Assembly (NCBI GenBank): GCA_026985375.1
Contig: JALSQP010000012.1
Location: forward strand, 1-5,308
DNA length: 5,308 nucleotides
Direction of reading: 5' to 3'
Origin: Desulfurococcales archaeon
GTDB lineage: Archaea > Thermoproteota > Thermoprotei_A > Sulfolobales > Desulfurococcaceae
The notes beneath the pieces are model-generated. The model saw only the letters and a list, made by a program, of their open reading frames with translations, ran no database searches and was not told the origin of the DNA. The position numbers were made by a program, and so were the translations under genes. Shown here piece after piece: positions 1-5,308 of this stretch; the first letter of the stretch is position 1; each line of letters opens with the position of its first letter.

Positions 1-819
1 TGCATTCATTAGAATTGTATAATTGTATGGCCCATAAACAACGTTCCAATACACCGTACCATTAGGTATGCCTTTATTGGCACTCACATAGATTTCTCCA
101 TTAGATCCCGTCAAATACCTTGCTAAAAGCTCACCTCTCCTATCATATATTTTTATCACGGCATATGGAACAGCACGTCCAAATACGTCCCTAATAACAA
201 TCTTAGACGATAACAGGTTCAAACCACATTGTATCTGTTGAGATATTGACGGAGTAATTGTCTCTATAAATGCGGGCATAAGGGGGGCTGCTATCGAAAA
301 TACTATTACCGTGGAGATTATCATAGCCCCTGCAGATCGCGAAAGACGAAACGGGATCGAGTGAAGAAGTAATCCTATAGCGATAAGAGTAGGAGCATAT
401 ATTCTAAGGGCAGTTAAAAGAGTTGTTAATGTTATGAAGAATATCAGAAGATATGTTAGTGAGGAAATTAACGGCGAAATAATAGAGCTCGAGACAAATT
501 TCAGGTTCATACTTACAAGTGCTGAACCTATAAGTCTTAGCGAAGCCATTGTTCCCGCAATAGCTCCTATTTCTTTGGCGCTCCATAGATAGAAAGCATC
601 CCAATCGGTGCCAATGATTCTCGAGATATATCTGATTATGTACAGTATCGCTGTATATGAGAAGATGAGTGTGGCTGAAAAAATACTATCAATCATGAGT
701 TGCGGCGCCCATTTCTTGAGACCATAGAAAGGTATTGGCAACATGTATATCAAAACACCTAGATAGTATCCCAGTACTGACAAATAATACGCTATAACGA
801 TTACATTATTAATGATCAT
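1..819 (-). CDS. cedA: CedA/VirB6-like polytopic membrane channel protein of a DNA-import system, 3' end cut by the window edge
   Basis: An open frame on the minus strand gives 273 residues and runs off the left edge without a stop. An in-frame TAG at 847-849 bounds it upstream, and the ATG at 817-819 follows a GGGTG ribosome-binding sequence by 7 nt. Hydrophobic segments lie near residues 5-30, 42-65, 84-104, 112-136, 139-155 and 162-185. The stretch at about 139-183 (RIYAPTLIAIGLLLHSIPF, then a small-residue helix ending in a proline) resembles the conserved core of archaeal VirB6/CedA proteins. Residues 205-273 are hydrophilic and beta-rich, with a V-x-D-x-x-G-R-x-V-P pattern like Ig-like or carboxypeptidase-regulatory-like domains, probably outside the cell. 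CedA is known in Sulfolobales as the membrane channel of the Ced DNA importer and is related to VirB6 of type IV secretion. The small pilin-like gene upstream supports this reading. It is an inference from topology, motif and neighbour; another polytopic transporter subunit is possible. Confidence 0.72.
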   Translation of the reverse strand, partial: MIINNVIVIAYYLSVLGYYLGVLIYMLPIPFYGLKKWAPQLMIDSIFSATLIFSYTAILYIIRYISRIIGTDWDAFYLWSAKEIGAIAGTMASLRLIGSALVSMNLKFVSSSIISPLISSLTYLLIFFITLTTLLTALRIYAPTLIAIGLLLHSIPFRLSRSAGAMIISTVIVFSIAAPLMPAFIETITPSISQQIQCGLNLLSSKIVIRDVFGRAVPYAVIKIYDRRGELLARYLTGSNGEIYVSANKGIPNGTVYWNVVYGPYNYTILMNA

Positions 820-826
820 GATCCCA

Positions 827-831
827 CACCC
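827..831 (-). promoter_or_regulatory. Shine-Dalgarno-like site for the CedA-like gene
   Basis: On the minus strand GGGTG stands 7 nt before the ATG at 819. Its GGTG can pair with CACC in the conserved archaeal 16S rRNA 3' end. It favours this ATG as the start and suits an internal gene of an operon, where leaderless initiation is not available. Confidence 0.4.
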
Positions 832-868
832 AAAATATGAACTCCACTAGGAAACTAGACCAATCCAT

Positions 869-1147
869 TCATATAGTGGGTGGAGCCGGTAATGGCTGAT
901 AGAATGTATTTGCTATGTATGCGATCAGCGCGAACACTGTTGTCCCCATCGCTAACCAGAACGCTGCCCACACCGCATCTTCTATAAATCGTTCCCCAGT
1001 TCTCTTAATTCTCATAAATGGAATGGGTAATCCTCTTATAGCCCATCCGATTACCCAAGTCAGGAAAAATATAACCCAAGCAACAATGGTCACATTCACT
1101 ATTATTCCCTGAATAAAACTAATAATATTGTTCAATACAACCACCAT
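869..1147 (-). CDS. cedA1: Two-helix membrane protein, probable CedA1/VirB2-type conjugative pilin
   Basis: This small complete gene encodes up to 92 residues. Two hydrophobic helices, about residues 8-37 and 58-82, flank a short loop at 38-57 that is rich in basic residues (R38, R46, K48, R49, R53) and contains RGLPIPF. The C-terminus is a proline-rich tail (QPLPAPPTI). Two helices around a basic loop is the architecture of VirB2/TraA conjugative pilins and of crenarchaeal CedA1, whose filaments are homologous to bacterial conjugation pili. The size also fits CedA1. The next gene, 49 bp downstream on the same strand, is a VirB6/CedA-like channel, so the pair is probably one transcript. The N-terminus before the first helix is short, so any cleaved leader must be small. 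The ATG at 1147 has no Shine-Dalgarno; GTG at 1144 and TTG at 1135 are alternative starts. Without a search, a generic small two-helix membrane protein cannot be excluded. Confidence 0.7.
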   Translation of the reverse strand: MVVVLNNIISFIQGIIVNVTIVAWVIFFLTWVIGWAIRGLPIPFMRIKRTGERFIEDAVWAAFWLAMGTTVFALIAYIANTFYQPLPAPPTI

Positions 1148-1158
1148 AAGAGTCTGAG

Positions 1159-1169
1159 AATATATTGAT
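1159..1169 (-). promoter_or_regulatory. Candidate TATA box for the ced operon
   Basis: On the minus strand the sequence TCAATATATT is the most TATA-like element upstream of the pilin-like gene. Archaeal TATA boxes usually lie about 25 bp before the transcription start. That would put the start near position 1137, inside the longest reading of the gene and close to the TTG at 1135. An alternative AT-rich core at 1187-1193 would instead give a short leader. No clear BRE precedes this box, so the call is weak. Confidence 0.33.
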
Positions 1170-1180
1170 AGGTGGGATAG

Positions 1181-1193
1181 CCGAAACTATTAA
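1181..1193 (+). promoter_or_regulatory. BRE plus TATA box for the PAPS-reductase-like gene
   Basis: CCGAAA at 1181-1186 resembles an archaeal BRE and is followed directly by the AT-rich CTATTAA at 1187-1193. The spacing predicts a transcription start at or within a few bases of the ATG at 1214, so the mRNA is probably leaderless or nearly so. This matches the poor Shine-Dalgarno in front of that ATG. The element lies in the 66-bp gap shared with the divergent ced operon. Confidence 0.45.
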
Positions 1194-1213
1194 CGGACCC
1201 AGGACTGATAACA

Positions 1214-3193
1214 ATGAAGAAATTATGGCCCAAGACGACTAAGATATATTGGGATCCAGACTATAATATCCCAATAATAAAGCCCCTGCCAGGCCAAGAA
1301 GATTTATTCTTTATCCTGAAATTAACTGAGCCCGGTGATGCAAGACCAGCTTTTGGCCAGGATTTAAAGAAGCTTCAAACGGCAATATTTTATGAGTTCA
1401 ATGATTTACGAATCTATGATGTCTTATTCAAAGGCATGTCCATTCTTTTCAATAAGGTTCCACATTGGGATCAGATGTGGGAGGTTGTTTCTTCCGGCAA
1501 CGTCATGGGTCAATTATATTATGATCCCTTTAAGGATAAGTGGAGGTTCCGTTTAACATTCGCTGGCGCCTACATATTGTATAATCAAGGTATAGCCGAT
1601 TTCGTCAAAATTAATACCCGCATACCCCGCGGAAAAATCATTCGTTCAACTCCCTCTACTAGTTCAAAACAAGTAGTAATTGTCAATGATAGGGATGAGG
1701 TTGTAGGTATAGGAGAAATTACTAGCGGAGGAGTACAGGTAATTAAGATCTTTAAGAGGAGAAAACACCCCGTGGAAACAAGCGGGAAACCAGCGAATCT
1801 CGATACTGTTATAAAACATAATGAATATGGCCTGCAGTACTATGAAGACAGGGCCGTCAAGCTACTTAGAAAACTGTATATGCTTTATGGGGGCCCTGTA
1901 GTGGTTTCTTATTCGGGTGGAAAAGATAGCCTAATAGCGCTATATCTCACTTTAAAAGCTATTGGCGATGCAGAACTACTGTTTAATGATACAGGACTAG
2001 AACTTCCTGATACGATAAAGAATGTAAAATATGTCTCCCAAAAATACGGTTTGAATCTAACTATAGCATCAGCTGGGAATATCTTCTGGAAAGCTGTAAG
2101 GGTATTTGGTCCTCCGGGCAAAGATTATCGCTGGTGCTGCAAGATAACCAAGCTAGTTCCACTAGCAAGAACCGCGAGGAAGAAATGGCCTCGGAAAGCA
2201 CTAAACATAGTAGGCCAGCGTGCATTCGAATCAATTGATCGTGCTAAAAGTCCTATCATATGGAGAAATCGCTGGATACCACATCTGATTAGCGCTACAC
2301 CTATTCAGGAATGGAACCAGTTACTGGAATGGCTTTATATAAAGAAAAATAATCTTCCATACAATCCTTTATATGATAAGGGATTCGAAAGGCTGGGGTG
2401 CTTCTTATGTCCCTCAAGTACGTTAGCGGAGTTCAAAGAGGTAGAGAAAACCTATCCTGAATTATGGAATAAATGGATAGAAGAGCTGGAATATTGGAGA
2501 GAAAAACTACAACAACCAAAAGAATGGATAACCTTAGGGCTGTGGAGATGGCTATCACCAGCCGTTGCTAAGCAAAGACTTGTCAAACATATACCTGGCT
2601 ATGAAATTGATTGGAAAAAAGAATACATCCTCAGATTAAAGTTCTCAGAAACGGGACTAGCCCCTTGCAGAGTAAAGAAGGAAGATAATGAGACTGAGAT
2701 AGACTTCGACAACAATATTCTACGGAAAAACATGATTGAACGAATCACTTATTCGCTGAAAACAATCACGCCTAATGTTACAATGAAGAACGATGAAGAT
2801 AAACCAGTAATAAGTATCAACATAAATGATGTACATGCATTAATTTCAAAGAATATAGTAATCGTTGATAAAAGGCTTGAAGATAGTCTTGAAGAGATAG
2901 CGGATATCTTGAAAGCTATCTACAGGATTTATGAATGCGCTAAATGTGGAAGCTGTATCCTATGGTGCCCTAGAAATAATATTATACTTAGAAACCACGG
3001 AGCTATATTCGGCGATCGATGTAACAGGTGTAAAATTTGTATAGATGTTTGTCCCGTAGCGGAGGTACTCGTAGAAAGAGTTGTACTTCCATTAATAACA
3101 GGCGACCCAGCAATATGGAAGAGATCATCTAGAAGACACGGTGATGAATTAATAAAAGCCTTCAGGGAGTATGGCATAGTCGATGAAACTTAA
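1214..3193 (+). CDS. PAPS-reductase-like PP-loop protein with PUA-like and double 4Fe-4S ferredoxin domains
   Basis: A complete 659-residue cytoplasmic protein. Residues 1-125 are the conserved N-terminal region of archaeal PAPS-reductase-like proteins (GDARPAFGQD at 41-50). Residues 127-183 look like a PUA domain, a fold often used for RNA binding. The PP-loop domain spans about 225-445, with SGGKDS at 234-239, NDTGLELP at 258-265, CCK at 308-310, GQRAFES at 334-340 and CFLC at 396-399. The CC...CxxC set (C308, C309, C396, C399) matches the 4Fe-4S ligand pattern of APS reductases. Residues 490-565 are a charged, mixed segment I cannot assign. The C-terminus is a ferredoxin domain with two CxxCxxCxxxCP motifs (C575-C585 and C603-C613). 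PAPS/APS reductases cut an activated sulfate nucleotide to sulfite, but their C-terminal ECG(L/I)H catalytic motif is absent here. Family membership is firm; the reaction is not. An electron-accepting adenylyl or sulfur-transfer enzyme, possibly on RNA, is an alternative. The ATG at 1214 fits the promoter spacing. Confidence 0.9.
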   Translation: MKKLWPKTTKIYWDPDYNIPIIKPLPGQEDLFFILKLTEPGDARPAFGQDLKKLQTAIFYEFNDLRIYDVLFKGMSILFNKVPHWDQMWEVVSSGNVMGQLYYDPFKDKWRFRLTFAGAYILYNQGIADFVKINTRIPRGKIIRSTPSTSSKQVVIVNDRDEVVGIGEITSGGVQVIKIFKRRKHPVETSGKPANLDTVIKHNEYGLQYYEDRAVKLLRKLYMLYGGPVVVSYSGGKDSLIALYLTLKAIGDAELLFNDTGLELPDTIKNVKYVSQKYGLNLTIASAGNIFWKAVRVFGPPGKDYRWCCKITKLVPLARTARKKWPRKALNIVGQRAFESIDRAKSPIIWRNRWIPHLISATPIQEWNQLLEWLYIKKNNLPYNPLYDKGFERLGCFLCPSSTLAEFKEVEKTYPELWNKWIEELEYWREKLQQPKEWITLGLWRWLSPAVAKQRLVKHIPGYEIDWKKEYILRLKFSETGLAPCRVKKEDNETEIDFDNNILRKNMIERITYSLKTITPNVTMKNDEDKPVISININDVHALISKNIVIVDKRLEDSLEEIADILKAIYRIYECAKCGSCILWCPRNNIILRNHGAIFGDRCNRCKICIDVCPVAEVLVERVVLPLITGDPAIWKRSSRRHGDELIKAFREYGIVDET

Positions 3194-3213: not shown

Positions 3214-3225
3214 ATTATTTCTTTT
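3214..3225 (+). terminator. T-rich tract, candidate terminator for the plus-strand gene
   Basis: Starting 21 nt after the stop of the PAPS-reductase-like gene, the plus strand reads ATTATTTCTTTT. Archaeal transcription commonly ends at such U-rich tracts without a hairpin. The tract lies over the last codons of the convergent helicase gene, so the two transcripts would overlap slightly at their ends. On the opposite strand I see no comparable T-run just after the helicase stop. Confidence 0.3.
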
Positions 3226-5308
3226 CAAGAAACTTCTTGATCTTTAAATAATTCTTTTCACTTTCATATATTAATTTATACATTTCATCTTCACTTGACA
3301 CCCTCCTCAAGATCTTAATGGCTTCGGTGACACCCACACCTGGAGAAGCTAGTAATATAAGAGCTATTCTTCCATAATATGTAAGAAGAAGTGCCCGTTT
3401 CTTTAGATCATCAATAATTTTTCTCTCCTCCCGTCTGAGACGATGTCCTTTCTTCCATTTCTCTAAGCTCCTTAGAATATTATCGTCCAAAATCTTTAAG
3501 GGAGCTAAGGTTCTAAGACCACATCGGGGGCAACTGAATATTTCCTGGCTGATTAGGTCTTTAACTCTGCCATCTATTGTGTACCCGCAGTTAATACATA
3601 CCATTTTTATTTTGCGTGAAAGAATCCTATCTTTATATGCATTATAATCCACTACTCCAATGTTTTCGGCCAATATAGGAACATGTTTTACGACTTTCTT
3701 CAAAATGCTATCATCAATTGACTGGCTAATTATCTTTGTGACACTTATCTGTCCTCGTTCGATCTTTCTAGCGATATCTATTAATCCTCTTAGGTCGAAG
3801 TCTTTGGTTAAAACCTCATTTAATGCTTCATCTCCAATTATAGTCTCTCCGAGCTTATCAAGCAAATAGCGGGTTATCTTGTCTGCTGCAGGATCGATTG
3901 CACCAAATCTTTGTCCTACCTGATATATCCTCCAGTAATAATAGGATGTTTTCCTAACTATTGATCTTATGTCGTCAGAAACTAAATGATATAGACTAAC
4001 TATTAGCTCATATATTAGATCATAAACCCTAGTATCGAGGGGAATATTATATGATTGAAAAACGATATAGTATGGAGTTGAATAAGCGTTTATTTTGTAT
4101 ATTGGATAGCGAAGCCTTATATGAAATCTAAGTATTTCTTTAAGGAGATTGTTTATTCGTGTGCCTCCTGTTAAATATACGACAATGAGGCCTTTACTCT
4201 GGATATACTCGACTATTACTCTCTTATCACTAAACATTCTATCTGGATCAGTAGTAAGTTCTTTTACGGCATTTTGTACATGTTCAGGATAATCACGAGT
4301 TTTACTAGTTGCGATCATTCTAATGATTGCACCAACATATCTTGCCACACCATATTCTACAGGAATGTTTTCACCTTCCCAATGAGGAATAATCGGTGGT
4401 GCTTCAGCTTCAACTCTCTCTACATACAACTTACGCGAATCCTTATCGTACTCAACTACTTTCCAGAGTTTTCCTCCAAGAACAATGGGATCGCCGGGGT
4501 TAATGTTTATTAGAACATATTCTTCATTCAAAACACCTACTTTATTACCTGTTGAAACTTCTACTACAGGTATATCACGTGTTTCAGGGATCATGCTTGT
4601 TTTATATACGTACAGCCTTGTTTTTCTTGTAGGATATATACGTGAATTACGTACACGTATGATCCTAGAATATTCCAAGAACCCAATTACCTTCTCAAAT
4701 TCAGTATAATTTAGATTGTTGAAAAGTGGATAACTAATTATTAGTTCGTATAATTCTGATAGTCTGATACCATTAGACTTAATTAGTGATAGAACCGATA
4801 TGACATAAGCTAAAACATCTAGTGGTTTGTAAATAATGTTTTCCTGCTCAAGAAGGTTTTTCTCAGCTCTTTTAATGAGAATATATGATTCAAGGATCTC
4901 TAATGGATTGTCAAGCGGAATAATACATCCTTTACCAACACCGTAGAGCTTATGCCCGCTTCTACCAATCCTCTGTACAAGTCTAATTGTCTGTCTTGGT
5001 GACATATACTGTATGACATAGTTGACTAAACCTATATCGATCCCTAATTCCATACTTGATGTTGCTACTAAAGCATCTAGATTGCCACAACGAAATTCGT
5101 TCTCTATTTCGAGCCTGTGTTTCCGTGATAAACTGCCGTGATGCACGCCGATCCTTATATCTATTCCAAGAAGAGTATTTGATATTTTATCAAGTATATA
5201 TGATAATTTTTCAGATAACGAGCGAGTATTGACAAATATTAAGACATGACGATATCTCTTTACCAGTCTTAATATAACGGCTATTCTAGCTGATAATTGT
5301 TTATCATA
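3215..5308 (-). CDS. lhr: Lhr-type superfamily 2 helicase, C-terminal part (5' end beyond the window)
   Basis: The minus-strand frame is open from the right edge to the stop at 3215, giving 697 visible residues. The GTG at 5146 is in frame but lies inside the helicase core, so it is not the real start. The RecA2 motifs appear in order: motif IV FVNTR (25-29), HHGSLS (56-61), the motif V region VATSSMELGIDIG (81-93) and motif VI QRIGRSGH (112-119). Next come a winged-helix-like region and the Lhr-specific C-terminal region with HWEGE near 309-313. Four cysteines, CxxC at 571/574 and CxxC at 593/596, form a probable zinc ribbon before a basic helical tail. Motifs I to III, in RecA1, would lie to the right; about 200-250 residues are missing if the length is usual for the family. 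Lhr helicases are ATP-driven 3'-5' translocases acting on DNA, RNA or hybrids, linked to repair and RNA metabolism. The reading is firm; the archaeal Lhr subgroup is not resolved. Confidence 0.93.
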   Translation of the reverse strand, partial: YDKQLSARIAVILRLVKRYRHVLIFVNTRSLSEKLSYILDKISNTLLGIDIRIGVHHGSLSRKHRLEIENEFRCGNLDALVATSSMELGIDIGLVNYVIQYMSPRQTIRLVQRIGRSGHKLYGVGKGCIIPLDNPLEILESYILIKRAEKNLLEQENIIYKPLDVLAYVISVLSLIKSNGIRLSELYELIISYPLFNNLNYTEFEKVIGFLEYSRIIRVRNSRIYPTRKTRLYVYKTSMIPETRDIPVVEVSTGNKVGVLNEEYVLININPGDPIVLGGKLWKVVEYDKDSRKLYVERVEAEAPPIIPHWEGENIPVEYGVARYVGAIIRMIATSKTRDYPEHVQNAVKELTTDPDRMFSDKRVIVEYIQSKGLIVVYLTGGTRINNLLKEILRFHIRLRYPIYKINAYSTPYYIVFQSYNIPLDTRVYDLIYELIVSLYHLVSDDIRSIVRKTSYYYWRIYQVGQRFGAIDPAADKITRYLLDKLGETIIGDEALNEVLTKDFDLRGLIDIARKIERGQISVTKIISQSIDDSILKKVVKHVPILAENIGVVDYNAYKDRILSRKIKMVCINCGYTIDGRVKDLISQEIFSCPRCGLRTLAPLKILDDNILRSLEKWKKGHRLRREERKIIDDLKKRALLLTYYGRIALILLASPGVGVTEAIKILRRVSSEDEMYKLIYESEKNYLKIKKFLEKK

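Follow-up and report, generated by a model that had tools for sequence, protein, structure and literature searches.

The pilin and channel genes at the contig end

The stretch of DNA considered here (the window) is one whole contig, G000:C12, of 5308 bp, and belongs to the draft genome of a Desulfurococcales archaeon (990,945 bp in 164 contigs, 69.5% complete). At one of its ends lie genes assigned to the Ced system, in which CedA1 makes a pilus, CedA forms the gate, and CedB and CedD drive the import of DNA (PMC9905601; PMC11868833). The original prediction had described, from the letters of the window, a short pilin gene that is followed after 49 bp by a polytopic channel gene lacking a stop. 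This layout agrees with the coordinates of the open reading frames (ORFs), which place both genes on the minus strand with a spacing of 49 bp (820-868) and let the channel ORF run without a stop up to the window edge. Because the window is the entire contig G000:C12, the absent stop reflects the edge of the assembly. The features of the two genes are as follows.

869..1147, minus strand: cedA1, encoding a 92-residue, VirB2-like pilin, with ATG start (NCBIfam NF041797; 8dfu match)
1..819, minus strand: cedA, predicted long form, first 273 residues, with ATG start, the gene being cut by the contig end (NF041796; 461-residue relatives)
256..819, minus strand: membrane core of CedA, residues 1-188, with six hydrophobic segments (NF041796 match, AlphaFold2 model, hydropathy)
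1..222, minus strand: beginning of the surface insert predicted for CedA (residues 200-273), belonging to a first beta domain (AlphaFold2, fold comparisons)

The 92-residue protein carries the basic loop RIKRTGERFIE between two hydrophobic stretches, as had been proposed. Its score against the NCBIfam family CedA1 (NF041797; 120.9 bits, E 1.7e-35) exceeds the curated cut-off of 100 bits, and among the sequences of solved structures residues 7-81 of the 92 have been aligned to the pilin 8dfu (8dfu_B) with E 2.2e-23. The database record of 8dfu speaks only of a pilin protein; we take it to be the Aeropyrum pernix CedA1 pilus of PMC9905601. By these matches the protein is the Ced pilin CedA1, and its likeness to the A. 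pernix pilus is one of sequence.

The family matched best by the second protein is CedA (NF041796; 129.6 bits, E 1.5e-37, residues 4-199), followed by its Saccharolobus paralogue CedE (NF053657), with which it shares a homologous membrane core, at 98.2 bits and thus far below the CedE cut-off of 400. The curated CedA cut-off of 330 bits is missed as well, by the window fragment and by its full-length relative P0001 (136.3 bits) alike. Residues 2-67 also resemble CedA1 in the NCBIfam profiles, a relation between the two families that has already been published (PMC9905601). The predicted core motif, GLLLHSIPFRLSRSAGA, is located at residues 149-165, and the hydropathy of the full-length relative L010 has revealed seven hydrophobic segments; six of these precede residue 188, in the range covered by the window fragment and in line with the about six helices that had been counted there, and the seventh lies beyond the reach of the fragment. 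From about residue 200 the protein ceases to be membrane helix and a predicted beta-rich domain begins.

A protein search among 2113 candidates has returned 35 CedA relatives at E <= 0.001 (best 8.8e-159), most of which have about 460 residues, compared with 259 positions in the CedA model. The closest, P0001-P0003, are 91-96% identical to the window protein (P0001 96%) and have 461 residues, which rules out the known form of about 260 residues for the window CedA. As the CedA score remains under the curated cut-off, the window channel is, by its sequence, better described as a CedA homologue of a long form than as a member of the NCBIfam equivalog. In precomputed Pfam annotation, 33 of the 35 relatives bear the label PF27251.1; the CedA family itself is hence already known to curators. 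A local Pfam scan of P0001, P0027 and P0035 has given no match. Since the label is present on the N-terminal fragment P0006 and absent from the fragment P0034, which begins at the insert described below, it probably covers the membrane core and not the insert.

An insert between the sixth and seventh helices

The alignment of long and short CedA proteins has placed the seventh membrane helix in both, and the difference between them lies in the linker connecting helices six and seven. For the comparison of linker lengths, 107 CedA ORFs were reduced to 96 distinct complete ones by leaving out those cut by the end of a locus or contig, the window together with L001-L008, and duplicates recognised by their last 150 residues. 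The linker comprises 215-253 residues in 64 of these ORFs, 19-27 in 30, and 48 and 53 in the other 2. The 30 short linkers originate from 30 genomes, all of the Sulfolobaceae-like family f9, which we take for Sulfolobaceae because it is the only family passing the Sulfolobus-based CedA cut-off (20 of the 229 genomes of the class) and because all 30 genomes have UpsX. The linkers of 48 and 53 residues belong to G134 and G135 (L078, L079) of family f6, and the 64 long ones are distributed over 13 of the 14 CedA-bearing families, f6 included, with contigs L009-L025 counted with f1. An interpretation as a C-terminal extension has been ruled out, as the insert is followed by the seventh helix, which corresponds in the alignment to the final helix of short CedA proteins; in G116 and G137 this helix gives separate matches to the CedA profile, at positions 215-255 and 220-255.

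A profile built from 22 inserts has found 34 of the remaining 42 at E < 1e-3; two rounds of iteration have brought in all 64, and none of 840 shuffled inserts has passed the iterated profile, in a test whose linkers include some residues of the flanking helices. The CedA inserts are thus, as judged by profile similarity, one homologous family. In the AlphaFold2 model of P0001 the insert folds into two beta domains, the first of which spans about residues 200-304 of the full protein, and modelled alone it reaches a predicted local distance difference test score (pLDDT) of 92.6 and a predicted template modelling score (pTM) of 0.87. Searches against Pfam have yielded nine families at E <= 0.1, each in one of 17 members and none of them transthyretin-like, CnaB or carboxypeptidase regulatory, and the best match among the sequences of solved structures has been an aspartokinase (E 0.023). 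Folds of VirB5 or TraG do not occur in the fold-comparison lists of the insert, an absence that carries no weight against such folds.

Regarding its location, the share of lysine and arginine is 18.5% in loop 1, 16.8% in loop 5 and 22.8% at the C-terminus, and the linker is acidic. Sequons of the type N-x-S/T number 255 in the linkers compared with 125 expected, and 13 in the cores compared with 33.6 expected. Because this charge alternation fits a linker on the outside and the sequons are enriched in the linkers, the sequences suggest that the insert is exposed on the cell surface. The window cedA, judged from its relatives, is accordingly predicted to be a long form with a surface insert.

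No account of a surface domain of CedA has been found in the literature covered, to which the founding Ced paper of 2016 (PNAS), where the domain may be mentioned, does not belong. The kind of locus is itself known, and what is probably new is a long CedA with a predicted surface domain, which is widespread and probably ancestral. If most Ced channels carry such a domain, current pictures of the channel, the pilus and partner recognition omit a part that is probably ancestral.

Possible role and history of the insert

Taking these results together, we regard it as likely that the window contains a chromosomal locus of Ced type for a probable pilus and DNA-import channel, with a cedA of the long form that bears two predicted surface beta domains. 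With the Ced system of Sulfolobaceae it shares the CedA1 pilin, the CedA core with its seventh helix, the position of cedA1 beside cedA, a CedB-like ATPase in relatives and a CedD-like ATPase in its own genome; it differs by the long CedA linker and by a CedD-like frame without the N-terminal part. CedA2 is described as not conserved among Ced systems in PMC9905601, which also presents the Ted system of Thermoproteales as the same kind of set of pilin, channel and ATPase, with parts that have no recognisable sequence similarity to those of Ced.

DNA import is the likely function of the window system, given its homologues. By this homology, the pilus would consist of CedA1 and lipid, its base and the gate for DNA would be a ring of CedA, and incoming single-stranded DNA would be driven by CedB and CedD. 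Each CedA subunit would contribute one set of surface domains, and together these may form a glycosylated collar around the pilus base under the S-layer, which might steady the pilus or touch the partner cell, and which has probably been lost in the Sulfolobaceae-like family. A match of CedA-like proteins to VirB6 by profile or structure has been published (PMC9905601). For the bacterial R388 machine, a VirB5 pentamer mounted on one of VirB6 has been described, with formation of the pilus between the two as a proposal of the authors (PMC9259494); the CedA inserts may constitute a collar comparable to VirB5 on VirB6. Other comparisons have been made by description only: VirB6 and VirB5 of bacterial type IV secretion systems likewise provide a channel at the pilus base with parts beyond the membrane (PMC9259494), and the periplasmic domain of F TraG and the extension of VirB6 in Rickettsiales (Anaplasma VirB6-4) are C-terminal, in contrast to the CedA insert, which lies between two helices. 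Alternatively, the protein may belong to a Ced importer in which the insert is a passive spacer or an anchor for the S-layer, without a role at the pilus or in cell contact. The insert recurs in 13 of the 14 families with CedA as a conserved part of a channel where the pilus should stand, which speaks against a passive part, although not strongly, and we consider this alternative possible but somewhat unlikely.

The direction of change has been approached with a tree of 79 of the 96 membrane cores (omitting 12 f9 rows and L009, L011, L015, L016 and L024), from which the linker columns were excluded and in which linker length needs two changes. As the long forms occur in nearly all CedA-bearing families, including f12-f14 from beyond the order of the window, the changes are most simply read as two losses, and the short Sulfolobus channel is probably a stripped form. 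The f6 pair, G134 and G135, is nested within the long forms on starred branches, and G136, which shares their genus code, has a CedA frame of 457 residues, which fits a recent loss of the insert in the pair; this loss is separate from the probable one in the Sulfolobaceae-like family. Two properties of the tree weigh against the reading as losses: it is unrooted, and the f9 rows, which form one starred group, are placed by a weakly resolved branch. Both leave room for the opposite course, in which the insert arose once the Sulfolobaceae-like family had split off, so that Sulfolobus keeps the old short channel and the long form is derived. Such a course is improbable, since it has to accommodate long forms in all but one of the 14 families, those beyond the window's order among them, and a clear loss within the long forms in the f6 pair.

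If the insert was lost from an ancestrally long channel, one may ask what accompanied the loss. In Sulfolobales, partners are recognised via Ups pili (PMC11868833). UpsX (NF046072) has been matched in 33 of the 229 genomes, namely the 30 f9 genomes that have CedA, in each case with a short linker, and G155, G222 and G223, in which the matches are weak (25.5-27.1 bits) and all of which have long CedA frames; a search with 336 UpsX residues has found 26 of the 229 genomes, all in f9. That Ups pili replaced the insert, in a swap of contact devices, is only partly supported by this distribution, as the overlap of UpsX with short linkers amounts to one clade, and so to one event, and the f6 pair has lost its insert without any UpsX match, in genomes that are only 79 and 56% complete. 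Extending this thought, the ancestral importer of Crenarchaea might have kept a mating-contact device within the channel, a ring of surface beta domains around the pilus base, which Sulfolobaceae dropped once Ups pili took over recognition. We hold this scenario to be rather doubtful. Ced genetics come from Sulfolobus and Saccharolobus; if the scenario is true, the laboratory model for DNA exchange in archaea is exceptional rather than typical. How DNA is transported in Crenarchaea without Ups pili has been posed as an open question (PMC11868833), which the long CedA makes testable, and the insert, with about 190 residues and a high-confidence prediction, is suited to expression and testing on its own.

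Gene order, ATPases and neighbouring genes

A CedB-like ATPase in the parent genome had been named as a check of the original prediction. The CedB profile has found no match to CedB in the assembly of the window, which is 69.5% complete, its two hits being the CedD-like ATPase; the contig breaks inside cedA, and this absence, which would be expected if cedB lies past the break, is not decisive. G075 (L009/L059) and G076 (L010/L058) are two genomes from the genus of the window, where a gene for a CedB-like ATPase lies 137 bp after cedA (top NCBIfam family CedB, 98.1 bits, below the cut-off of 700). The order in this genus is Lhr, PAPS-reductase-like, cedA1, cedA and the CedB-like ATPase, followed by two further genes whose sequences are read as an RNA methyltransferase and ribosomal protein L3. 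A survey of 55 CedA loci among L009-L025 and L060-L097 (L017 and L091 being the same contig) has found cedA1 adjoining cedA on the same strand in all 55, with cedB as the following gene in 40; among the remaining 15 loci, five end within or just past cedA, two of them on the same contig, and ten belong to f6 and f7. CedA matches occur in 179 of the 229 genomes of the class, and in 108 of the 122 more complete ones.

Given the homology of CedA1 and CedA with conjugation machinery (PMC9905601), the two genes could also be part of a mobile conjugative element, one that serves the export of element DNA and not a resident import system. Different families share the gene order and have neighbours of household type beside it (no search for a relaxase or for element ends was made), and the frequency of CedA among the more complete genomes is that of a resident system, which makes a mobile element very improbable. 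A chance likeness of small hydrophobic sequences, with both proteins in an unrelated transporter family, is already refuted by the strong and specific matches to CedA1, CedA and 8dfu and by the gene order with cedB, compared with Pfam matches to unrelated membrane families that are weak (E 0.1 or worse). The identification of the locus as a Ced-type pilin and channel is in this respect supported.

Three genomes of genus g2 in the window's family, G070, G071 and G072, are 99-100% complete and have no CedA match; the Ced system is lost or replaced in them. In family f5 (L110, L112, L113, L118, L122), the genomes G117, G118 and G121 have their CedA-like and CedA1-like matches at a wide distance from each other or on separate contigs, in contrast to the other loci inspected.

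The CedD-like ATPase of the window's own genome is encoded on contig C82 and matches profile positions 193-525 of 527 with 287.6 bits (cut-off 600). In five genomes its frame begins near profile position 193-200, with the N-terminal part missing, and an ORF of 116-135 codons is found just upstream of it in the own genome, G075, G076, G089 and G102. In L004 the short ORF occupies 962-1369 and the ATPase follows at 1423-2493, with counterparts in L139, L140, L141 and L142. The two might perhaps represent a split CedD; the profile comparison of the short ORF with one CedD of f9 has not been significant (probability 1.3%, E 0.04).

A further membrane ATPase of 590 residues is encoded at L005:721-2493 (G000:C49), with relatives in L059, L062, L063, L068, L073, L074 and L075. 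Proteins of this type are HerA/VirB4-like, have about 600 residues and possess an ATPase domain preceded by four to seven hydrophobic segments; in several families their gene and the Lhr gene close to the Ced locus are divergently oriented. The top PADLOC match is DndH, in the ATPase part. CedB has been ruled out as its identity, as no CedB match is obtained at E 0.01 and the top NCBIfam match is the ATPase part of CedD (91.5 bits). The N-terminal half, a fast-changing query, has been found in at least 27 of the 229 genomes. The protein might be a further Ced part; it has been kept out of the system, as it is present in G084, G107 and G108, which have no CedA match.

The remainder of the window contains the following features.

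1148..1213, no strand: gap of 66 bp between the divergent cedA1 and PAPS-reductase-like genes (ORF coordinates)
1214..3193, plus strand: PAPS-reductase-like protein with a 4Fe-4S (ferredoxin) domain, adjoining cedA1 in many relatives
3215..5308, minus strand: Lhr-type helicase, C-terminal 697 residues, near the Ced locus in many relatives

The PAPS-reductase-like protein has BrxP as its top PADLOC match (160.8 bits), and its matches to DndC and SspD are weak. Its observed tie to Ced is the recurring position beside cedA1. The Lhr-type helicase is apparently split over two contigs, with the C-terminal part at 3215-5308 of the window and the N-terminal part at L005:2-655, near the start of C49. 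Because parts of the helicase lie on both contigs, C49 is probably the next contig after the window in this genome.
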